From a virus, in the IMG/VR virus record IMGVR_UViG_3300037487_000254, positions 1 through 31,321 of that record: a DNA stretch of 31,321 bases. One strand, given 5' to 3'. The notes below the pieces were generated by a model, which searched no databases, was not told the DNA's origin, and saw only the letters and a list, made by a program, of their open reading frames with translations. The number at the start of each line of letters is the position of its first letter. Within the stretch, counting starts at the first letter, position 1. Of this stretch, positions 2,748 to 14,448 are shown piece by piece. Made by a program: the position numbers and the translations under genes.

Positions 2748-3643
2748 TGTATTATATTTTTAACCATTGAATCAAATGTGTAATTCTCTTTGACAAACTC
2801 ATTGCCTTGCTTTGCTATTAAGTCCCGCTCCTCTTTATGGTCATCCAGATAGTATCTTAATAGTACCATTAAATCATAAAGGCTATTCCATGTCCTTACA
2901 TGAACGTGATCTATAAAAGGCATATTAGGGTATGCTTTGCATAAACAGAACGCTCCAGATCCTAGTATTCTGTATATCCTATCTGAACTATATGAGTCCT
3001 CATCATAATGGCTTAGATTGATTGCTATCTTGGTTGCTCTGTATGCCTTAGCCTCCTCAGCCTGAGAATGGTTATAATTACCCGATACATTAAACCAGTT
3101 ATTTCCATAAACGCCATACCTATTGCCAAAGTGTTTATTTAGCATCGTATTCATTTCAATCCTTAACCTGCTTAACGGAAATTTATCACCTCCGTAATTA
3201 TTACCGAAAAAAGAAATCTCTTTGCAATTACCTATCTCACCTTCTGGTGTATAAATCTCAGGATCGTATCCAATCTCTAAATAACCTCCGTTTGATACGT
3301 TCCTTACATCTCGCATATTAGAGAACAATGTTTTATCTACATAAGGAGCCATCTGTATCATCCATCCTGGCGTTTCATTTCTTATATCGCCGTTCCAATT
3401 ACAAATCCATGCGCCTGTTTCTTTCATAGCCTTAACAGTCTCTATCTGAATAATGTTAGGTGCTTGAATTTGCATAAAGATTATATCAGGCATAAACTCT
3501 CTAGCTATTCTGACTGCTTCTTGGTTTACATCTTTTGCACCTGTTGATAATTCTATGTAATCATCACAATTAGCTAAAAAGGCTTTACGTGCCGAATCAT
3601 TGGGAGGAGGTGCAACCATTAATCCTAAATGGAAAATTCTCAT
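2729..3643 (-). CDS. CgeB-like glycosyltransferase, GT-B fold
   Basis: The 304-residue product has the layout of CgeB-like and Glyco_trans_1_2 proteins. An N-terminal half includes AREFMPDIIFMQIQ (about residues 47-60) and WNGDIRNETPGWM (83-95). The C-terminal half has KISFFGNNYGGDKFPLS-like, AINLSHYDEDSYSSDR and RILGSGAFCLCKAYP, followed by a C-terminal helix ending VKNIIQWKLKS. The GSGAFCL segment corresponds to the donor-binding turn of the second Rossmann-like domain. It is the first glycosyltransferase of the block in transcription order, overlapping the small upstream gene by 4 nt. Donor and acceptor cannot be predicted. The family call is fairly secure. Confidence 0.75.
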   Translation of the reverse strand: MRIFHLGLMVAPPPNDSARKAFLANCDDYIELSTGAKDVNQEAVRIAREFMPDIIFMQIQAPNIIQIETVKAMKETGAWICNWNGDIRNETPGWMIQMAPYVDKTLFSNMRDVRNVSNGGYLEIGYDPEIYTPEGEIGNCKEISFFGNNYGGDKFPLSRLRIEMNTMLNKHFGNRYGVYGNNWFNVSGNYNHSQAEEAKAYRATKIAINLSHYDEDSYSSDRIYRILGSGAFCLCKAYPNMPFIDHVHVRTWNSLYDLMVLLRYYLDDHKEERDLIAKQGNEFVKENYTFDSMVKNIIQWKLKS

Positions 3644-3816
3644 ATTTTACGGATGTTATCCCAATCTCTTAGGAACTCTAATATTGATGGGTAATTAACT
3701 CGCCCTGCACCGCACTTTCTGCGAACATGAATCCAACCATTTATAACGCCAATACAGATTTTATACTCTTCATTCTTGTATAATCCTGCTTCACCGATAA
3801 AGTTGGCTTTAAACAT
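3640..3816 (-). CDS. Small hypothetical protein, 58 aa
   Basis: The ATG at 3816 gives MFKANFIGEAGLYKNEEYKI and 58 residues; a slightly longer reading would need a TTG two codons earlier and is less likely. The protein is basic near its C-terminus (HVRRKCGAGRVNYPS) and has one Cys. No known domain is recognised. It is the first gene after the capsid-operon terminator and overlaps the next glycosyltransferase by ATGA, so it probably starts the glycosyltransferase message. A TACATTTG box lies at 3820-3827, only a few bases before the ATG, which would make the mRNA nearly leaderless if used. Confidence 0.55.
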   Translation of the reverse strand: MFKANFIGEAGLYKNEEYKICIGVINGWIHVRRKCGAGRVNYPSILEFLRDWDNIRKI

Positions 3817-3841
3817 AAACAAATGTACTTATTTTAATAAC

Positions 3842-3873
3842 AAAAAAAAACCTGCCGATTTCTCGACAGGCTT
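3842..3873 (-). terminator. Rho-independent terminator after the capsid gene
   Basis: On the minus strand an 8 bp stem CCTGTCGA / TCGGCAGG, with one G-T wobble, closes a GAAA tetraloop. It is followed at once by a run of nine T. The stem can be extended by A-T pairs at its base. It lies 23 bases past the capsid stop codon and is the best terminator in the window. It separates the structural operon from the glycosyltransferase block. Confidence 0.92.
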
Positions 3874-3895
3874 TCCCCCATAAACACTAAAAAAG

Positions 3896-5098
3896 TTAGC
3901 TTGGATTAGCATTAAGTGAACCAGTCACAAATGCATCAGTATAGTAAATAGGAAGTGCTATACGACCCTCAACACGAACTGTAATTTTGTTCTCACGAAC
4001 GTTAGTACCATCTTCCTCAAAGAACCTAACAATCGGATTCTCACGAACATAAAGCTGAGCACCTTTTGACCAATCTCCAACAAGGTACTTAGAATCACTC
4101 ATTGCAGTAGATTTGAATACCGGAATACCTGAAATAAACATTTGACCATTTACAGAGGTTACAGTTCCTAGTCCTGGCAAAGTGTAATCATTGGTAGTTC
4201 CTCTAGTAAGTAATAGAGCATAGTACTGCTCAGGACTTAACAAGATACCATTTGCAGAGTGATTGTTTCCATCAACTTGTGCAATTGAATCAACCAACTT
4301 CTCAACCTGAATAGTACGGAAACCTGAGTAAGCCTCAGCATTGGTAATCAAACCACCTAACTGTGGAGATACACCAGTTCCGTTCAATAATTGATTATCT
4401 TCTGCATCAAGGTATTGCTCAAGTAAACGAGACTGAAGGTATGAACGCATTGCAGAGATATCATCAAGCGCCTTGCGTGTGATACGCAAGTAACCTGCAA
4501 TAAACTCAGAAGGTGCAACCTCTTCTGTCAAATCATAGTCAATCTGTGATTTGCTTCCTGAGTTATCTGCCCATGCTCCAACTGATCCCTCAGAACCTGT
4601 TTCTTGCAAGTAGTGAATTGCAGAAGTAGTCATAACTCCAGCATCTAGTAATGATCTGATGTGCAACTTACGCGGTGCAGCTGGGATAATGCCCGGTAGC
4701 ATCTGTACGTTTGCAGCAGCTAGATCAGTAATATTAGATAGTGACATATCGCCAACTGTCTTTAACTCCATTGCAAATGACTTAATCTCTTTTCTTTTGA
4801 ATTTCTCCAAATTATCAAGGTTCTCATCCATTGCAGTAGCAAAAGCCTGTTTGAAAGAAACTGGCGCTTTACTTTGAGCATCCATTTTAATTCTATTGTT
4901 TTCTGATTTGGCTTCAAGCAATGCTTTGTCCATTTCATCAAATTTAACAGTCGTAGATTTTTGCAATTCTTCTAGCTTTAAATCTGCTGCCTTTGTAGCT
5001 TCGCTGATAGCGTTTGAGATGATAGTCTTTGCTTCATCTAATGTTTTGGCTTTGTTTGCATCTAGCAACTCCTGAGCCTTTAATTCTAAATTGTCCAT
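3896..5098 (-). CDS. HK97-family major capsid protein
   Basis: The 400-residue protein has the organisation of HK97-fold major capsid proteins. Residues 1 to about 80 are charged, Ala/Lys/Glu-rich and predicted coiled coil (AKTLDEAKTIISNAISEATK). This matches the scaffolding delta domain that is cut away during maturation. The shell part follows, with typical segments such as APSEFIAGYLRITRKALDD, LQSRLLEQYLDAEDNQLLNG, ISGIPVFKSTAM and the C-terminal NKITVRVEGRIALPI. It is translated two bases after the protease gene, as usual for this pair, and is the last gene before the strong terminator. Unlike most relatives it is not followed by connector genes. It assembles the icosahedral head around the portal; the exact cleavage site is not identified. 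Confidence 0.95.
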   Translation of the reverse strand: MDNLELKAQELLDANKAKTLDEAKTIISNAISEATKAADLKLEELQKSTTVKFDEMDKALLEAKSENNRIKMDAQSKAPVSFKQAFATAMDENLDNLEKFKRKEIKSFAMELKTVGDMSLSNITDLAAANVQMLPGIIPAAPRKLHIRSLLDAGVMTTSAIHYLQETGSEGSVGAWADNSGSKSQIDYDLTEEVAPSEFIAGYLRITRKALDDISAMRSYLQSRLLEQYLDAEDNQLLNGTGVSPQLGGLITNAEAYSGFRTIQVEKLVDSIAQVDGNNHSANGILLSPEQYYALLLTRGTTNDYTLPGLGTVTSVNGQMFISGIPVFKSTAMSDSKYLVGDWSKGAQLYVRENPIVRFFEEDGTNVRENKITVRVEGRIALPIYYTDAFVTGSLNANPS

Positions 5099-5100
5099 TT

Positions 5101-5808
5101 TTATTTTTTTAAGACGTTAATTAAACTTGTTAATATATTCGGCTCATCAGTTTTATGAGTGGCAATTACCGGCTCTTTATCTAATAGTGAATTTTTACCT
5201 AAATTAAAAGCCTGTAGTTGAAATTGCTTTAATGCAATTTCTAATCTGCCAAACCCTTCATCCGTTAAGCTGCCATCTTTTAGCAACTTAATCATTTTAC
5301 TTATCTGATCATTAATCTCACCCATTGTCAAGGATTTAAACCCTGTAAATGGAGTTTCTGGATTTGCACCCAGAGTGACATTTGATCCCTCGTATAACTT
5401 AATCTCTTTGATCATGCGCATTCCTGTGTTTTGGTCATAATCTGCCTTAATGGTTGAAAAACCAATAGAGTGCTGAACAACAATGCCCTCAGCATATAAT
5501 ACCATCGCATCCTTGCCGTAGCTTGTAGGTGCTATAGAACTCTCAAAGTATATACCTTTATCCTGAGCCTCTAATACCATAGGTTTCCCATGCGGTTGCG
5601 ACCAGTTATGCTGATTCAAAAAGAATATCTCATTTGATCCCATAGGACCACGTTCTGCGATAGTTTTAGTCGCTGCGCCCGGCATGATTATATCATCATC
5701 GTAATCAATATTGCCAAAACTAGCGAAGTAGCCTGTGACTGTCATCCTTTCAGAATCCATGTCCTTAATCTCAGCTTTAAAGTTCTTATATTCTAATAAT
5801 CCTTTCAT
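5101..5808 (-). CDS. HK97-family prohead protease (peptidase S78)
   Basis: The 235-residue product matches the U35/S78 prohead protease family. Residues 24-44 (VTGYFASFGNIDYDDDIIMPG) form the typical N-terminal strand pair. The catalytic His is most likely H67 in LNQHNWSQPHGKP, the nucleophile S114 in QHSIGFST, and E140 in LYEGSNVTLGANP occupies the third catalytic position. The C-terminal 60 residues are helical and unlike the protease core. The protein would trim the capsid delta domain inside the prohead. It lies between MuF and the capsid gene, the standard order, and is separated from the capsid gene by only two bases. A TATATTTG box at 5813-5820 just before its ATG could be a weak internal promoter. 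Confidence 0.93.
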   Translation of the reverse strand: MKGLLEYKNFKAEIKDMDSERMTVTGYFASFGNIDYDDDIIMPGAATKTIAERGPMGSNEIFFLNQHNWSQPHGKPMVLEAQDKGIYFESSIAPTSYGKDAMVLYAEGIVVQHSIGFSTIKADYDQNTGMRMIKEIKLYEGSNVTLGANPETPFTGFKSLTMGEINDQISKMIKLLKDGSLTDEGFGRLEIALKQFQLQAFNLGKNSLLDKEPVIATHKTDEPNILTSLINVLKK

Positions 5809-5832
5809 GTTTCAAATATAGTTATATTTTAA

Positions 5833-6693
5833 TTATCTTTTTAAATAGGGTGCAGTTCTAGGTTTTAGTATTGGTAAACCATCTGCATCCTTTATCGCTT
5901 CGGTAGCCATTACACATCGGCAATTAATAACTTCAGATGCTAACTGACTTGGCGGAGTTCCTAAAGGATCGCCAGGATACATCATTTCAGTAACTGCATT
6001 AGTTTTAGGATCTCTGACCATAAAAGGCTGATTAATTCCTATTCTATCCTGTGTCATTGCTAAATGTGAAAGTCTCGTTCTTTTATCTTTAGTATTAATC
6101 CAAAATTTTGCAACCTCATAATCAGAACTCTCAGCACCTAGATTTATTCCATGATTAGCTGCCGTAGTTGATTCTGTTCGTGCTATCACTAAAGACCTTG
6201 CTCTGTTAAATGCAGGATCATTTAGCGTTTCTTCAAATAGCTTTGCCTGTTCTCTTCTGGACAAATTTTGTCCTAAAATATTGGCTAATAAAGTCTGTAT
6301 CTTATCTCTTGTTGTAGTATCAATTCCTTGCACTTTATTATATCCAATAAATCTAAAGAAATTGACCATCTCCTCATACCATTCGGCATTAAAGAAATCT
6401 ATTATAAAATCCTTTTTAGTTTTAGGTACTGAATTGCGAATCCAGTCATAAGAAAATGTCGCAGCTGATACGCCAACCTTTGTGTAAATTTGTTCTAATC
6501 CTGAATACAAAGGTTTCTGTTGAACTAAGAACTCAATGTATAATTCAATGTTATCGAAATTGTCCTCATTTACAAATTTTGATACTGCACCTGTTTGATC
6601 GTCTAATGCTTTCTTGATGATAGGGTAAGCATAAGCCTCATACTCTTTATGCAGCCTTAAATACGTTTTGTGATATTTAACACTACTTGCCAT
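5833..6693 (-). CDS. MuF-like phage head morphogenesis protein
   Basis: The 286-residue protein carries the C-terminal signature of the SPP1 gp7/Mu F minor head protein family. The helix RSLVIARTESTTAANHG lies at about 167-182. KDKRTRLSH follows at 203-210, and the domain ends with VINCRCVM at 256-262, whose two Cys are conserved in the family. The N-terminal half is helical and predicted to contact the portal. Such proteins are incorporated in few copies near the portal and may enter the cell with the DNA. The start overlaps the portal stop by 11 nt, in the usual portal-MuF-protease-capsid order. Confidence 0.9.
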   Translation of the reverse strand: MASSVKYHKTYLRLHKEYEAYAYPIIKKALDDQTGAVSKFVNEDNFDNIELYIEFLVQQKPLYSGLEQIYTKVGVSAATFSYDWIRNSVPKTKKDFIIDFFNAEWYEEMVNFFRFIGYNKVQGIDTTTRDKIQTLLANILGQNLSRREQAKLFEETLNDPAFNRARSLVIARTESTTAANHGINLGAESSDYEVAKFWINTKDKRTRLSHLAMTQDRIGINQPFMVRDPKTNAVTEMMYPGDPLGTPPSQLASEVINCRCVMATEAIKDADGLPILKPRTAPYLKR

Positions 6694-8125
6694 TTATGGT
6701 TGCATTGTTATACGCCTGATCTAGCGACAGTTCATCAATAGGTACTAAGTTAGCCGGTACATAAATATTCCCCATCTCTGGAGTGCTGATCTTGTCATAA
6801 CCCTGAGCAATTCGTTTCTCATCTGGAGTAATCCAATATGAGTTAGCCAACCATGCAGTAAGCCTTTCCATATCCTCTTGCATCTCAGGATAACTACTAA
6901 AATCAAAATCAAAGTAGTATTTCTTTCCGTATGCCTTAGCGTATGGCTCGCAAACAAACTTGTTGATAGCATCCCTGATCTTGCGAGATAATGGAGCAGT
7001 TGCGTTATAAATTAACTGCTTAGACGCCCAACCCATGTTATTATCCGTAGATGCGGCTTCACTACCTGAAAACTGTATAGGAACGTGAAACGCTGCATAA
7101 ATCTTTCTGGTGTCTATGTTAAGTGATTCGATTAACTGCAAATCAGTTGATGGCATTCCTATCTGTGTCCATTTTAAAGGCCCTGAACTAGGGAAAATCC
7201 GATCCATTAAAGTCTCGCCACGTTTAGCCTCTACAAATTTCTCCTTTAGCACATTCATCTGATCTTTAGTCAAACTTGCACCCGGTCCATCTGGTGAGAT
7301 AAAACCATAAGCGCCTCCATTACGTATCTGCTTTAATAATTCGGCATCACCCTCATTTTCTTTTAGTACATTTCGGTAAATAGCTTTTATTGGTGATTGT
7401 CCATAAAGTTGCGCACCTGTCAGAGTAAAATCAGGATTAAAGGATTTAAAGTGAACAACTTGATTAGCCGGTATTGGAACTTCGGTCATGTAAACAGATC
7501 GCATCTGATAGCCTTTTATTGGCTCAAACATTCCGCCAGAGATAATCTCTATAAACTGACTAGGCAAAGAGTATAACTGTGACCAGATTTGTTTCTCGGT
7601 CATTGCAGGATCCTTGCCATTCCCAAAGATATATCCATCGCCAGTACATAAGAAAAAACCTGCTAAATCAGTCATCCACTCTTCATACGTTTGCTGTGGA
7701 TTAGGTTTTGCTAATAAGTCAAGAATTGGATTGCTTTCAACTTGATTAAACATCTGCTCTTTTAACTGCAATGTTCGCATCTTAGCAGTCGGGCCATCAG
7801 CCATTGACATATTTTCATAAACCTTGAGATCCTTTTTAGTCACACCCTCTTTAATCTCATAAAGACAATAAGCGCATTCAGATATTTTCTTTGAGATAAT
7901 ATCAATGCAAGTATAAACATCTGCGTTTTTCTTAAATCCTTCATCTACAAACTTTACCTTATCTTCAAAATCAACTATAACCTGATTATTGCCAATCCAT
8001 CCAAAAACATTCTGGTTGTAAAGGTTAGCGGTTATTTGTTGTTGAAGTCCAGGCATTAAAGCCTCTAGCTGAGAGGTAGCTGCTTTATCTATGTCAGCTT
8101 TAAATATTTTAGAAAATAAGCCCAT
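6683..8125 (-). CDS. Phage portal protein, HK97 type
   Basis: Starting at the ATG at 8125 the protein has 480 residues. An upstream TTG at 8140 would add five residues but overlaps the terminase stop and is less plausible. It matches the HK97-type portal family: an N-terminal region VYTCIDIISKKISECAYCLY, the wing segment NPILDLLAKPNPQQTYEEWM, the VVHFKSFNPD motif, and the clip/crown region with TDNNMGWASKQLIYNA and DAINKFVCEP. Twelve copies would form the DNA channel at one capsid vertex, bind large terminase during packaging and the connectors afterwards. It begins one base after the terminase stop and overlaps MuF by 11 nt. Confidence 0.94.
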   Translation of the reverse strand: MGLFSKIFKADIDKAATSQLEALMPGLQQQITANLYNQNVFGWIGNNQVIVDFEDKVKFVDEGFKKNADVYTCIDIISKKISECAYCLYEIKEGVTKKDLKVYENMSMADGPTAKMRTLQLKEQMFNQVESNPILDLLAKPNPQQTYEEWMTDLAGFFLCTGDGYIFGNGKDPAMTEKQIWSQLYSLPSQFIEIISGGMFEPIKGYQMRSVYMTEVPIPANQVVHFKSFNPDFTLTGAQLYGQSPIKAIYRNVLKENEGDAELLKQIRNGGAYGFISPDGPGASLTKDQMNVLKEKFVEAKRGETLMDRIFPSSGPLKWTQIGMPSTDLQLIESLNIDTRKIYAAFHVPIQFSGSEAASTDNNMGWASKQLIYNATAPLSRKIRDAINKFVCEPYAKAYGKKYYFDFDFSSYPEMQEDMERLTAWLANSYWITPDEKRIAQGYDKISTPEMGNIYVPANLVPIDELSLDQAYNNATINGK

Positions 8126-8126
8126 T

Positions 8127-9293
8127 TTAGTTCCAATCAAATGAATATTCTTGTTTAATTTTAGATGCTAATTTATTCAATGCCACATACCTCAAAGGAT
8201 CAATAAGGTGATTAAAAGCATCTATCGGCTCATTTAGCATCCTGCCTGTTTTATCTTTTTTCCAAATGTAACTAAATAATTCCTTTTTAAAGTTATGGCT
8301 ATTTGCCGTAACATTTATTTTATATCTTTTAAGGATATCAATGCCTTGCTTAATACTGTCTGGCCCTTTCATTGCGCCATGAATATTAAATCCTTCTGCA
8401 TAGATTTCCTGTATTGACTTGGGCTCTGCACTATCTGCAATTATCTCCTGATCCTCCGTTACCCCAAATTCTCTTAGCTTCCGGCATATATCCATATTGG
8501 TTAGCCTAGTCTCATAACACATCTCATTTACCCATAGTTCGCCACCTGACTTATAAACCTCTATAATACCGGTTGGATCATTAGTAAAACCAAAGTCAAT
8601 GCCATAGCTTATAAGTTCCGCATCTTCTGGTATCCGTTCACAGATTGCCCAGTTACGGAATATCACGCCTTCAATCTTACCTGTCAAACCTCTGGCATAA
8701 ACGCGCCACAGTTCTAAATCTAAATCTTTTATAGCTTCGATTCTTTGATGATCCTCCTTAGATATAAATGGATTATGCCGATGGTCTGATATGATCAGCT
8801 TTGTATTTGGCTGACCGATTAGCTTAGTATGCGCCCAGAACTCATTAGTCGGGTTGTAATCAATATAGATTTGATTCTTTGTCCTAATTGCTAACTGCCA
8901 ATATATCTGATAGCTTATACCATTAGCCTCATTCACGAATAAATAGTCACGCTTACCATTCTTAGCTGATTGCTCATTCTCAAAGGAAACAAACTCTATC
9001 AGCGATCCGTTAGTAAAGTAGATAATCCGTTCAGTCTTATTCCAGAATTTAAGTTGTGATTGCAGGTATTTGTTATCGGCAAAGATATTTTCAGCATCCC
9101 TGTATGCGCCTTTTCTTAGATTAGGTAATGATTCACCGGCTACTGTTATGACTGACCTCTGTTCGGTTACTGCTTTATAGAATAACAGTTGCATAATGGA
9201 ATACGTTTTACTTGAAGATGTGCCGCCCTGGTTAATTAATACTTTCTCTTTAGCATTGTAATTCTCATAAAAGACAGGAGAGGATTTAAACAT
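8127..9293 (-). CDS. terL: Terminase large subunit
   Basis: The 388-residue protein is a PBSX/Terminase_3-type packaging motor. The ATPase has a Walker A motif in NQGGTSSSKT (residues 21-30) and a Walker B motif YLFVNE (117-122) with catalytic E122. NQIYIDYNPTNEFW (140-153) fits the coupling motif C region. The nuclease domain has SYGIDFGF (D233), EIIADSAEPKSI (D287) and EPIDAFNHLIDPLRY (D358, D365), the expected RNaseH-like acidic triad. It cuts concatemeric DNA and pumps it into the prohead through the portal. It overlaps the small-subunit candidate upstream by 8 nt and stops one base before the portal start. Confidence 0.95.
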   Translation of the reverse strand: MFKSSPVFYENYNAKEKVLINQGGTSSSKTYSIMQLLFYKAVTEQRSVITVAGESLPNLRKGAYRDAENIFADNKYLQSQLKFWNKTERIIYFTNGSLIEFVSFENEQSAKNGKRDYLFVNEANGISYQIYWQLAIRTKNQIYIDYNPTNEFWAHTKLIGQPNTKLIISDHRHNPFISKEDHQRIEAIKDLDLELWRVYARGLTGKIEGVIFRNWAICERIPEDAELISYGIDFGFTNDPTGIIEVYKSGGELWVNEMCYETRLTNMDICRKLREFGVTEDQEIIADSAEPKSIQEIYAEGFNIHGAMKGPDSIKQGIDILKRYKINVTANSHNFKKELFSYIWKKDKTGRMLNEPIDAFNHLIDPLRYVALNKLASKIKQEYSFDWN

Positions 9294-9696
9294 TATCTAT
9301 TTCATTTTCATTACTTGCTAATGGAGGAGCAGTATTGTAAATAACTGGAGCAGGGATAACTAATTCACCTTTAAAATCCATATCAATTTCCTGCTTTGGT
9401 ACGCCATAGGCCGAATCCAGTATTGCCCTATAGGCAACGGTATCTTTTTGCCTGATCATCTTATCAGCCTGAATAATTGTTCCCATCTCTTCAATTGTCA
9501 TTGATTTGGTAATTTCAGGATATTGCTTTTGTAACTGTTCTAAAACCTTATCAGGATATATGGCAGTCATCTCTAAAACCTTTCTTGCAATAGTTGATCG
9601 ATTCTTTATGCCTACAGGCCTACCATTGACGTTTCCGCTTTGACCTTTCTCGTAAACTATCGCACCTCTTGGGGTTTCTCCTTTTTTAAATGGCAT
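9286..9696 (-). CDS. DUF5681-containing protein, probable terminase small subunit
   Basis: The 136-residue protein opens with KKGETPRGAIVYEKGQSGN followed by VNGRPVGIKNRSTIARKVL, the glycine and basic-rich DUF5681 signature found in phage genes directly before large terminase. The middle (YPEITKSMTIEEMGTIIQADKM, RAILDSAYGVPKQ) is helical. The C-terminal tail is loose and acidic. Position and size support a small-terminase role, recognising viral DNA and loading the large subunit. That function is inferred from synteny rather than a recognised DNA-binding fold. Its ATG overlaps the stop of the methylase relic, as in phages where an intact methylase precedes this gene. Confidence 0.75.
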   Translation of the reverse strand: MPFKKGETPRGAIVYEKGQSGNVNGRPVGIKNRSTIARKVLEMTAIYPDKVLEQLQKQYPEITKSMTIEEMGTIIQADKMIRQKDTVAYRAILDSAYGVPKQEIDMDFKGELVIPAPVIYNTAPPLASNENEIDNV

Positions 9697-9954: not shown

Positions 9955-10076
9955 CTATCCCTCAAAATTACAAATTTCTTTTAACCTTTGGATTTTTACC
10001 TGCTCCCAGCTTTTCCAATTATTAAACCATCCAGCATCCTAAATGCTTTTACTAAATCTTCATCTTTATTCATCAT
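9955..10076 (-). pseudogene. Possible small frame-broken gene
   Basis: From the ATG at 10076 one frame reads MMNKDEDLVKAFRMLDG and stops at 9996-9998. In an overlapping frame ending at 9955-9957 the sequence reads WFNNWKSWEQVKIQRLKEIC followed by NFEG. Together the two look like one small protein interrupted by a one-base change near 10030. It could also be chance. I recognise no family. Confidence 0.3.
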
Positions 10077-10085
10077 ATAATTCCA

Positions 10086-10403
10086 GTATAACAGTATAAC
10101 ACCAGTATAACAAGCCTTTGTTATAGTGTAACTATCTGACTATCAATTAGTTAACCCCCACTATAACACTATAACACGATTTTCGCGTTTTTATAAATTT
10201 ATTCCTGTATAACAAATTTATATATAATAATAATAGGTTATTTTTATTATCTACTGTTTTTGTTAGAGTTGTTATACTACTTTTACAAATACGTGATTTC
10301 CTTGTTATACTGTTATACTGCTCAAAAAAATGGGTTTTTAGTATCATAAAGCTTGTTTTTAGTATAACAAGCTCTTTGTTATAGTGCTGTTATAGTGTTA
10401 TAG
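10086..10403 (-). repeat. Array of 14 copies of the 8-mer (G/C)TATAACA in both orientations
   Basis: Plus-strand copies begin at 10086, 10094, 10105, 10161, 10169, 10207 and 10362. Reverse-complement copies begin at 10119, 10270, 10303, 10311, 10377, 10388 and 10396. Four pairs are directly abutted in tandem (10086/10094, 10161/10169, 10303/10311, 10388/10396). Two other copies form near-identical inverted pairs around short GCC or GCTC centres (10105/10119 and 10362/10377). The stretch is AT-rich and holds no credible gene. It lies between the primase-helicase gene and the promoter of the packaging operon. Plausible roles are a replication origin, a terminase recognition site or binding sites for a regulator; the sequence alone does not choose between them. 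Confidence 0.85.
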
Positions 10404-10429
10404 TGCTGATTTTTGTAACTGTTTGATAA

Positions 10430-12733
10430 TCAGAAGATTTTTTCATAATTGGCGTTTTTCTGTTCGCCTGATTTTAAAAGTAGCTGATCTTTCTTATCAC
10501 TCCATCGACCTATCACAACTCTGACATATTCAGGCTTAAAGTTGAAATTTTTTGCAATTTCAATGGCTGTTTTCATGGAAAAGTTAGCAGGAAGTGACCT
10601 AAAAAAGTCCGCAAGGTTTCCAGATATCTTGTCAAGCGGTGTCAATGGTGCCAAAATTTTCATTGATTTATGCATATTACCTAAGAAGTATTCAGTTAAT
10701 CTTATGGCGCGTTCCATGGCTTGATTTGATACTATTGTGCTAATATTTCTACCATCATACATCACCTGAATGATAAGGGAAAAACGTAGGCAATAATCCT
10801 GATATTTTGCGATAACTCCTTTAATGTTGTCATCTGGGGCAAAGTTGTATTTCTTGTTTTTGTTGTTAAACCATTCGGCATAAAGCTGATTAGCCTCATG
10901 TGATAAAGTATAATATCTTTGATTTTCCCTAAGTGATAATAGAGATAAAAATAAGTCCTGCATCTCGTATTTTATTACGAAAGGTATTTCATATTTTTCC
11001 CAGTCTTTCTTTTTATCGGGTTCAGGATAGCAAAATAAAAAACGATGGTAAAATCCGTTATGCTCATTTTCTTTATTGCTTAACGAATCTAATACACCCG
11101 GCTGTATGCCTCCGACTATTGAACAAAACGGATTTTCTACCTTGTTTTCATCGCGTGATATACGTTGCAATAAAACTGGAGAACCTGACCATAATTCAAG
11201 CCATTTCTGAACCTCGTCATTATCACCGTAACGGTTCATCCGTTTAAGGAATCCGCTTAACTCATCCGCTAAGATGCAGCATCCATCAGGATTATGTGAT
11301 AGAATCTTAACCACCATTTCAATAGTACTATCTTTTATAAGTATCTGTTTCATTGATGGCGGTGTTGGTTCGTCTATGCCATCACCTTTCTTTTGGTTTT
11401 TGTATTCACCAAGTTTTAATTTATAGATTTCCTTTTCTGCTAGATAGTCTTTATACAGCTTTGCATCGTATGATTCAATATAACTAAACATAGTCTTTAA
11501 CGATGGGCTTTTGGAAGCACCAGGAGGCGCCACCATTGCGATATAAAGTATCGGCTTAACACAATAACCATCATTAGCTATAAGTGTCGCTGAATTGCCT
11601 ATAATGCTTGATACAGCACCAAGTGCCGCAGCGGCTAAATAATCATGTTGAATATGACTGTAATTTATAAAGTCAAGTATAGTATCCGGAAATATATCAT
11701 ACGGAAATTTCAATCTATCAACTGGGATTAACGGCTGATTGGTGACTGGTTCTTGTTCTATAATTTCAATATTTGCGCTATCGCAAATAATCTGAATCTT
11801 ATCTACTGTTGAAGTCCAGTCCTTATCCTGATCGTAATAAACTAATCTTGATGGGCTTAAATTCCAGCTATGATCGTCCTTATCGGTACGAGTTCCCCAA
11901 TGAGGAAAACCAGGTAATGATGAAGTAAATAGCTGAACATTTTTTGTATTAAAATAAACCTTTGCAGATAGTTTGGCTTTTGAACCTTTACGTAAATAGG
12001 CAATAAATTTGTCCTTTTTGAAATACTTATAATCCCGGTTCACAAATAATCCTATTTCGTTTAATACTAAATCAAGTGCTTCATCGGTAATATTTCTATC
12101 AAACTGCAAGCATAGGTTTTCATATTCTCTAGGATACTCAATAATAATATTTGAGCGTTCCCCAGGCACCGGGACGTACTTATCAAATGATTGAGCGCAT
12201 GACATTAGGGTATCAAACTCATCATCTGTCAATTCGTCTAAATCAGTAAACTCATTGTGAAACATATTATACCCAGGTGTAGGGTCACAATAGGAAAGTG
12301 TACCACCGGTATATAAGGCAATAACCTCCTCGCCTTTAATTTCTCTAGCTAATGATACTTTGCTTTTTAGTTTCGAATATTTGATGTATACGTGATATCC
12401 AGCGTTTCTGGTTTTCTCAATACATATTTTGGAAAATATTCCATCATCCTGAGATTGAACGGCTTTCATCCAAATATCAAATACAGCTTTATCATCTGTA
12501 TTTTTCAGGTCAAAGTCTATACATCCAAAAGGTGGGAATAATTTTAAAGCTATACCATTGGAAGCGGAAACATCTTTAATAAAATTTGAGAATGTACCTT
12601 CTGTATAATTTTCCGCTGTGACTTTACCATGCTCAATACAATGGGAGGTAGCTGATCTTGTTTCTGCATCCCAGATTAATGGAATAGGCTTCAAACCAAG
12701 TTTGAAAAGTTCTATAAAGTAGTCTGCATTCAT
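10430..12733 (-). CDS. Primase-polymerase/helicase-like protein (Prim-Pol plus DUF3987)
   Basis: The 767-residue protein appears to have two parts. The N-terminal 200 residues resemble a bifunctional primase-polymerase: FGCIDFDLKNTD (about 69-80) supplies D73 and D75 as metal ligands, AGYHVYIKY (111-119) carries the conserved His, and YTGGTLSYCDPTPGY follows. After a linker, residues from about 340 match DUF3987, a P-loop ATPase related to replicative helicases. Walker A is APPGASKSP (402-410) and Walker B is CCILADELSGF (485-495). GSPVLLQRISRDENK and GGIQPGVLDSLS follow, and the C-terminus is helical. It would prime and unwind DNA at the viral origin. It overlaps the upstream gene by 4 nt and lies beside the 8-mer array, consistent with an origin there. 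Confidence 0.88.
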   Translation of the reverse strand: MNADYFIELFKLGLKPIPLIWDAETRSATSHCIEHGKVTAENYTEGTFSNFIKDVSASNGIALKLFPPFGCIDFDLKNTDDKAVFDIWMKAVQSQDDGIFSKICIEKTRNAGYHVYIKYSKLKSKVSLAREIKGEEVIALYTGGTLSYCDPTPGYNMFHNEFTDLDELTDDEFDTLMSCAQSFDKYVPVPGERSNIIIEYPREYENLCLQFDRNITDEALDLVLNEIGLFVNRDYKYFKKDKFIAYLRKGSKAKLSAKVYFNTKNVQLFTSSLPGFPHWGTRTDKDDHSWNLSPSRLVYYDQDKDWTSTVDKIQIICDSANIEIIEQEPVTNQPLIPVDRLKFPYDIFPDTILDFINYSHIQHDYLAAAALGAVSSIIGNSATLIANDGYCVKPILYIAMVAPPGASKSPSLKTMFSYIESYDAKLYKDYLAEKEIYKLKLGEYKNQKKGDGIDEPTPPSMKQILIKDSTIEMVVKILSHNPDGCCILADELSGFLKRMNRYGDNDEVQKWLELWSGSPVLLQRISRDENKVENPFCSIVGGIQPGVLDSLSNKENEHNGFYHRFLFCYPEPDKKKDWEKYEIPFVIKYEMQDLFLSLLSLRENQRYYTLSHEANQLYAEWFNNKNKKYNFAPDDNIKGVIAKYQDYCLRFSLIIQVMYDGRNISTIVSNQAMERAIRLTEYFLGNMHKSMKILAPLTPLDKISGNLADFFRSLPANFSMKTAIEIAKNFNFKPEYVRVVIGRWSDKKDQLLLKSGEQKNANYEKIF

Positions 12734-13362
12734 ATAGATTGAATTAAAGATAATGCAGCCTCTTTTAGCTTTTTAGTAAACACATTGTTATCACAAGCCC
12801 ATTGAAGGTACTGTAATTCATCTTTATCGGTCATGCTATCAAGTTGCCTTCCTGCATACTTTCCAAAGTGAATTGTCAAAGGCTTGTTAGTCGATATATT
12901 TGTAAGGAATCCACCACATTTACAAGTTGCTTTATAGTGTACGTTTTTGTCAATTTTATAATCATTTACCCTGCCGCATCTTTTGCAGGTTATGTCTTTA
13001 CCATTAATTCCGCATGCAATTGCATAAGCCTCATGCTCAAAATAATCCGGGTGAAATTCCCCATAAAAAAATGGAGCATACTTGCTTCCTTTGTGCATCA
13101 ATACGCACCAGCAATCAACAAAATAACCATCTTGAAATGTTGGATAATCTCTAAATGTCAGATTCCCTTCAAGCAAAACAATATTAGCTTTTTTTGATGC
13201 TTCACCCGCGTATCCTTTAAGCTGATCACTTGCCGGGTATTCACAACATTTAAGGTAAAGATTATGTTCTTCGATATAGAACATAGATTTTTCTGGGTAA
13301 AATTTTGGTGTATATCCCAATTTTGTGAGATACACAAAGTACTGTTCTTCTTGCTTATTCAT
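12730..13362 (-). CDS. Zinc-ribbon protein with a DUF3820-like C-terminus
   Basis: The 210-residue protein has a central CxxC...CxC cluster (ITCKRCGRVNDYKI, then ATCKCGGFL, about residues 124-151) that should bind one zinc ion. Its C-terminal 45 residues (IHFGKYAGRQLDSMTDKDEL, then YLQWACDN) match the small DUF3820-like module seen next to DNA-processing domains. The N-terminal half is rich in aromatic residues and unassigned. It overlaps the primase-helicase start by ATGA, so a role in replication or DNA repair is likely but not shown. A long-loop hairpin followed by T6 lies just upstream and may reduce its expression. Confidence 0.65.
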   Translation of the reverse strand: MNKQEEQYFVYLTKLGYTPKFYPEKSMFYIEEHNLYLKCCEYPASDQLKGYAGEASKKANIVLLEGNLTFRDYPTFQDGYFVDCWCVLMHKGSKYAPFFYGEFHPDYFEHEAYAIACGINGKDITCKRCGRVNDYKIDKNVHYKATCKCGGFLTNISTNKPLTIHFGKYAGRQLDSMTDKDELQYLQWACDNNVFTKKLKEAALSLIQSI

Positions 13363-14193: not shown

Positions 14194-14448
14194 TTAAGAT
14201 ACTGCCTTTAACTGTTTCAACCCAAAAGTATCAGGCATGTCATTAGGACCTACACTTCCATCCTTTAAAATTCGCATAGCATCCAGCGTTAATTTATTTG
14301 CCTTTATGATTTGAGCAGCTACTCCGCTAATTGCTTTTGCCTTTTGAAATTCAATTTCCATTTTATCCGCTTTCAGGGTTTCATCGTTCAATCTTTCCAA
14401 TTGAGCAAACAAGTGATCATTCAGATCAGTAATTTTATTTCGTGCCAT
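14194..14448 (-). CDS. Conserved small phage protein, 84 aa
   Basis: The protein starts MARNKITDLNDHLFAQLERL and continues with a helical QKAKAISGVAAQIIKANKL segment. It resembles a small family common in Bacteroidota phages and prophages, found between HNH-type and nuclease genes. It is predicted all-helical and soluble. The C-terminal tail (DMPDTFGLKQLKAVS) is loose. Its start overlaps the HNH gene end by 14 nt. The role is not known to me; the gene context suggests early DNA metabolism. Confidence 0.65.
   Translation of the reverse strand: MARNKITDLNDHLFAQLERLNDETLKADKMEIEFQKAKAISGVAAQIIKANKLTLDAMRILKDGSVGPNDMPDTFGLKQLKAVS

Follow-up and report, generated by a model that had tools for sequence, protein, structure and literature searches.

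A mirrored octamer array behind a DUF3987 primase-helicase gene as a proposed iteron replication origin in uncultivated Bacteroidota phages

Several mobile elements place a replication origin next to the gene of the helicase that reads it. In P4, as PMC4234260 states with reference to Yeo et al. (2002), the initiator is a primase-helicase that binds the origin through its C-terminal winged helix. The Rep protein of SaPIs is a self-loading helicase whose C-terminal domain reads iterons immediately 3' of the rep gene, and it apparently does so as two hexamers (PMC7581432). In the crenarchaeal plasmid pRN1, the origin directly follows the gene for a prim-pol/helicase whose C-terminal domain is a winged helix (PMC4234260). 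In geminiviruses, the positions and repeat patterns of the iterons are conserved and the iteron sequences differ between close relatives (PMC12548392). The DUF3987 family is predicted to be a helicase (PMC5862659). The literature searched, whose coverage was incomplete, yielded no account of origins of this kind in DUF3987 phages. The first-pass annotation of the DNA described here knew of no element of its type; P4 alpha/ori-crr and SaPI Rep/ori (PMC7581432) are close precedents.

The window analysed here covers an entire virus record (31,321 bases), a contig that may be incomplete. A search of both strands found 15 copies of STATAACA, compared with a mean of 3.26 and a maximum of 8 in whole-window shuffles that preserved dinucleotides. 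Fourteen of them lie within 10086-10403, seven on each strand, in agreement with the initial count, and the only other copy is at 6706 (-), so the 8-mer is not frequent outside the array. The top 8-mer of the helicase 3' flank occurred 8 times, versus at most 3 in 60 shuffles. The features discussed below are as follows.

9996-10076, minus strand: remnant ORF MMNKDEDLVKAFRMLDGLIIGKAGSR, 26 codons, after the array
10086-10403, both strands: iteron array of 14 STATAACA, proposed replication origin (octamer search, repeat pairing)
10086-10126: outer cluster far from the helicase gene, + (8) + (11) + (14) -
10141-10153, plus strand: second exact match to the IHF consensus WATCAANNNNTTR (TATCAATTAGTTA), between outer cluster and inner pair
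10161-10176, plus strand: inner abutted pair, two copies of CTATAACA, 42 bp start to start from the preceding inverted copy
10207-10214, plus strand: single octamer at the core edge
10214-10253: AT-rich core between the two arms, 37/40 A/T, proposed unwinding element
10270-10277, minus strand: single octamer at the opposite core edge
10303-10318, minus strand: inner abutted pair on the helicase side, two copies of GTATAACA
10362-10403: outer cluster on the helicase side, + (15) - (11) - (8) -, mirroring 10086-10126
10416-10428, minus strand: exact match to WATCAANNNNTTR (TATCAAACAGTTA), next to the stop codon of the helicase gene
10430-12733, minus strand: DUF3987 primase-helicase, 767 aa, proposed initiator (Pfam PF13148, E 4.8e-59)
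10433-10636, minus strand: C-terminal winged helix (predicted), residues 700-767, proposed octamer reader

The four abutted pairs and two inverted pairs reported earlier were both recovered. The abutted pairs have a period of 8 bp (10086/10094, 10161/10169, 10303/10311 and 10388/10396), and the inverted pairs are 18 nt long and 100% complementary (10084-10101 with 10303-10320; 10159-10176 with 10388-10405). Furthermore, the 14 octamers form seven mirror pairs around a single axis at about 10242, with midpoints at 10244.5, 10244.5, 10244.5, 10244.0, 10239.5, 10239.5 and 10242.0. One arm reads + 8 + 11 + 14 - 42 + 8 +, and the mirrored arm reads + 8 + 11 + 15 - 51 + 8 +. Within 3 bp, six mirror pairs were counted in the window, a number reached by 7 of 1000 arrangements in which gaps and strands were shuffled. 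The same symmetry test was weak for several relatives and strong for the window.

Other signals were scarce. No GC skew inflection was found at the array, where one had been proposed as a check; this is uninformative, since nearly all genes run in one direction and the contig is possibly partial. Between 9600 and 10700, there was no exact DnaA box (TTWTNCACA), only three sites with one mismatch. The window had no Rfam match and no nucleotide relatives among named phages.

The large genes flanking the array lie on the minus strand. The helicase gene ends with a stop codon at 10430-10432, leaving 26 bp between this codon and the array. On the other side, the TerS gene (9286-9696, -) starts 390 bp past the array, and together with the TerL gene that follows it (Terminase_3, 8127-9293) it makes up the next full genes. 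The array therefore adjoins the helicase gene directly and the terminase genes only loosely. The remnant ORF at 9996-10076 has longer versions in L006 and L007, and small proteins like it are encoded after the arrays of L035, L051, L053 and L089 despite their differing helicases; it probably marks a module junction in the window. Among the TerS proteins of L008-L067 and the window, the N-terminal parts are interchangeable and the C-terminal tail (IPAPVIYNTAPPxASNENEIDNV) is near-constant. The window TerS differs from those of L009, L016 and L025 ahead of this tail, a pattern that looks like a swapped DNA-binding part and a fixed TerL-contact tail. Elsewhere in the window, an 84-aa protein (14194-14448, -) matches phrog_2044 (E 1.1e-25), a family annotated as RNA polymerase beta subunit; this annotation is probably wrong, as the protein is far too small for a polymerase subunit.

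Which of its neighbours is the array inherited with? In relatives retrieved by the helicase, the array was located directly after the helicase gene, and it was retained with helicases at 94-96, 83, 62 and down to about 48% identity, with differing neighbours beyond it. At 94 and 83% identity, the word is unchanged, the copy number is again 14 and the spacing is almost identical. The idea that related phages would share the array held up, as nearly all relatives with a related helicase have one. L007 has a different terS beyond its array. In L178, L199 and L200, ORFs intervene between the helicase gene and the array, which still lies downstream with its own word; in L178 and L179 it consists of AGTTACA in 7 copies, about 640-890 bp downstream with other ORFs between. 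The DUF3987 relative L203 has a weaker, displaced candidate array about 1 kb away, and L204 contains AAAGTAA 12 times. The intervening ORFs include 4054-4623 in L178 and 5343-6232 in L203. L186 is a prophage in Pedobacter cryotolerans, which points to Bacteroidota as the host group.

The reverse test used 80 loci fetched by TerL (89-98% identical). Many had an array upstream of terS made of other words, and each of these words was downstream of a different helicase: CCTATTAA and AGGTAGTA followed VapE with PriCT-2, and TGTAAAAA followed DUF5906. This comparison bears on the suggestion that the array is a packaging (pac or cos) site read by the product of the downstream terS gene. Some phages are known to have iterated sites close to terS, and the terminase genes are indeed the next full genes after the array. 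However, L016 (AGGTAGTA) and L020/L021 (CCTATTAA) encode an identical 96-aa TerS and a TerL 97-98% like that of the window, yet their words are unrelated. The window and L009 are the reverse case, with a common word and TerS proteins that differ before the C-terminal tail. In addition, L006 and L010, which have related helicases, keep the array and have no terS/terL match in the fetched stretch. Since an identical TerS occurs with entirely different words, the terminase cannot be the reader and the array belongs to the replication module. The packaging proposal is thus contradicted, and we regard it as very improbable.

One VapE locus, L190, is the cultured Flavobacterium phage FPSV-S1. It has an array of GGTTACAC (8 copies on both strands, 2823-3080) directly 3' of its VapE gene and is a ready laboratory model. 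The cultured VapE phages phi46:1, P12024L and mumin6-4 had no such array in the 3' flank examined.

We compared the arrays of the DUF3987 group by word and by spacing. In 15 of 19 DUF3987 loci, the top 8-mer of the 3' flank had 7-11 copies, versus a maximum of 3-5 in shuffles. The words in these loci were GTATAACA, ATATAACA, CTTATGCA, TTATGCAA, TTGCACAA, AAGTAACA, CTGTAATA, AAAGTTTC and AAAAACGA; 7-letter words of relatives' arrays include TTATGCA, TTGTGCA, TATTACA, AGTAACA and AGTTTCA, among others. The remaining four loci include L175 (ACCTTACT, 5 copies), L181 (a GTGACG-type word) and L178/L179. When 7-mer cores were read on the gene strand, the start-to-start spacing was common across words: + 8 + 11 + 13/14 - 51-53 + 8 + on the helicase side and, mirrored, + 8 + 11 + 12/13 - 43/44 + 8 + on the other side. 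The window layout was compared with those of L010, L156, L162, L169, L186, L170, L159 and L180, whose arrays have other words or variants, and each comparison beat 200 of 200 random layouts. The layout did not match the VapE array of L035 in base pairs, so base-pair conservation of the layout is restricted to the DUF3987 group. The two spacer classes (42-44 and 51-53) are about one helical turn apart, a difference suggesting that it matters on which face of the DNA the copies lie. L175, L178 and L181 have helicases 76-83% identical and three unrelated words. Given that the spacing is kept and the word is swapped in all copies together, word and winged helix seem to evolve as a matched pair, like lock and key.

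These comparisons also weigh on two readings in which the array has no replication role. Repeats can expand by slippage, and the array could be a selfish or degenerate product of chance amplification with no function. The spacing is conserved nearly to the base pair at 48-63% protein identity although the words have changed, and we consider this explanation practically negligible. The other is an operator array for a transcription regulator of the late (packaging) operon. TGTTATAS resembles an extended -10 box, promoter-like matches number 10 versus 4.6 expected by chance, and the array does sit between replication and packaging genes. Relatives with other words (TGCATAAG, TGTTACTT) lack the promoter resemblance and keep the layout; moreover, an operon operator does not call for mirror symmetry on both strands around an AT core, and the array stays with the helicase regardless of what lies beyond it. 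An operator function on its own is accordingly improbable. The earlier proposal of regulator sites is not needed to account for the array, but autoregulation is possible.

The reader of the octamers was sought in the adjacent helicase. DUF3987 is the only Pfam match of the 767-aa protein, and its PHROG label is DNA helicase. Alignment of relatives showed an invariant D73-x-D75 and H114 in the N-terminus, which by its motifs may resemble archaeo-eukaryotic primases (AEP-like); a primase HMM gave no match to this region. For the C-terminus, an AlphaFold2 model from 20 aligned sequences (pLDDT 87) has the order helix, strand, helix, helix, strand, strand and is predicted to be a winged helix. With VIA-align, this model matched MecI (Z 8.8, rmsd 2.3, 67 residues) and BlaI (Z 8.5, rmsd 2.0, 67 residues), both winged-helix repressors. 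Its helical part matched MCM C-terminal regions with Z of about 9-10 over 76-94 residues, a lead only, since values of that size are common for helical domains. The P4 origin-binding domain was not among the structural matches listed. Foldseek found no match of the C-terminal model in the PDB at E <= 0.001, and neither the C-terminal region nor the whole protein gave a match in a profile search of PDB sequences. A full-length AlphaFold model from 5 sequences was unusable (pLDDT 37).

Residues 700-767 are the least conserved part of the protein, with a mean pairwise identity of 36%, compared with 55% for the helicase and 54% for the N-terminus. With helicase identity removed, winged-helix similarity was associated with word similarity (partial Mantel r 0.31, reached in 27 of 2000 permutations); the N-terminal control showed no association (683 of 2000). 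As the correlation is modest and comes from 14 sequences with words defined by eye, it is support rather than proof. Could the array be an origin whose octamer is read by another protein, with the helicase recruited to it? The upstream gene (12730-13362) encodes a 210-aa protein of no identified family with a weak zinc-finger-like match (E 0.043), and a host initiator is the other candidate. Nevertheless, it is the helicase winged helix that covaries with the word, and helicases of unrelated classes are each followed immediately by an array. A host protein such as DnaA cannot account for words that differ between phages, nor is there an exact DnaA box. A separate reader is therefore unlikely, although it is the likeliest of the alternatives considered.

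A second element accompanies many arrays whatever their word, namely TGATWATCA followed by AGTTA, in or beside the array. TGATWATCA has a density of 1.70 per kb at arrays versus 0.05 elsewhere in the same loci. The IHF-like site at 10416-10428 is part of this conserved element, and the site at 10141-10153 overlaps GATAGTCA..AGTTA on the minus strand (10137-10144). The whole contig has six exact IHF-consensus matches, including these two. Exact matches were present in 11 of 23 flanks, versus 1.6 expected and a maximum of 7 in shuffles. A host bending protein of the IHF/HU family would be the natural reader of the element and of the IHF-like sites. In L053, which has a DUF5906 helicase (3719-5290) and a TGTAAAAA array, TGATAATCA..AGTTA overlaps the stop codon as in the window, hinting at a host factor common to helicase classes.

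We propose, with a probability of roughly 0.84, that the array is an origin of bidirectional replication and that the adjacent self-loading helicase binds the iterons with its winged helix. The origin with iterons, one of the functions first suggested, is well supported, because the array travels with the helicase, its dyad is centred on an AT-rich core and its word varies with the winged helix. What the sequences show is the layout and its symmetry, the joint inheritance of array and helicase gene, the concerted change of words, the association of word and winged helix, and the predicted fold. By analogy with P4, SaPI and related systems, from which binding, melting, loading, bidirectionality and bending are taken, the process may run as follows. 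The primase-helicase (10430-12733, -) would bind the octamers via its C-terminal winged helix. Each arm, with three tandem copies, one inverted copy, a spacer of about 42-52 bp and an abutted pair, would position one helicase assembly, and the mirror-image arm a second one facing the first. The IHF-like sites in and beside the arms probably introduce bends that could bring cluster and pair together on one complex. The AT-rich core between the inner pairs would then melt, a pair of ring helicases would load in head-to-head orientation, and primers for bidirectional replication would come from the fused primase domain. The geometry imposed by helicase assembly would stay fixed while word and winged helix change as a pair.

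If so, origins and initiators can be predicted for uncultivated Bacteroidota phages without any assigned here, and DUF3987 may be an origin-binding, self-loading helicase. A fixed layout with a free word would separate the needs of helicase assembly (geometry) from those of recognition (sequence). It also poses an evolutionary puzzle, namely how about 14 copies can all change between helicases that are 76-83% identical while the origin keeps working. One tentative answer, which we regard as possible but doubtful, is that the origin word is a replaceable identity tag. The winged helix and about 14 sites would have been switched together repeatedly under a fixed spatial code, and switching would be selected, for instance as an escape from cross-replication, incompatibility or satellites among co-infecting phages. 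The pairs of word and winged helix might then constitute a readable DNA-recognition code.

Compared with known systems, the window is closest to P4 and SaPI. As in P4, its octamers are in both orientations, and its array is 3' of the helicase gene just as crr (4291-4590) is directly 3' of the alpha gene (4636-6969, -). P4 ori consists of three copies of GGTGAACA (10, 11), TGTTCACC (22), 43 bp and two copies of GGTGAACA (10). Its order, +++- (43 bp) ++, is that of one window arm, +++- (42-52 bp) ++; its spacing is + 10 + 11 + 22 - 43 + 10 +, and the window shares the order of cluster, spacer and pair. Both words end in AACA. Unlike the window, P4 splits its sites between ori and crr, about 5 kb apart, and crr consists of 120-bp direct repeats. 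The window has two mirrored arms in one place and no second cis element (a single octamer elsewhere in a contig that may be incomplete). Its helicase also differs from P4 alpha, with DUF3987 as the only Pfam match and no primase HMM match to the N-terminus; a distant kinship of the two winged helices is possible.

In SaPI Rep/ori, and likewise in SCCmec Cch2, an iteron origin lies directly downstream of the initiator helicase gene, as in the window. The SaPI ori has iteron sets flanking an AT-rich region, and the window too has iteron sets on either side of such a region. In contrast to SaPI Rep (DUF927 or D5-type), the window helicase is DUF3987, and the likeness to SaPI is judged from the published description. 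The pRN1 origin is a stem-loop without iterons, unlike the window. Geminiviruses resemble the DUF3987 phages in their conserved pattern with diverse iterons, but they are plant ssDNA rolling-circle viruses with an unrelated Rep and few iterons of 5-6 nt. With another helicase family and two arms in one place, the window would work like the P4 and SaPI systems without belonging to either family. Its novelty relative to these precedents is the two mirrored arms, the proposed DUF3987 initiator, the concerted word switching and the conserved IHF-like sites.
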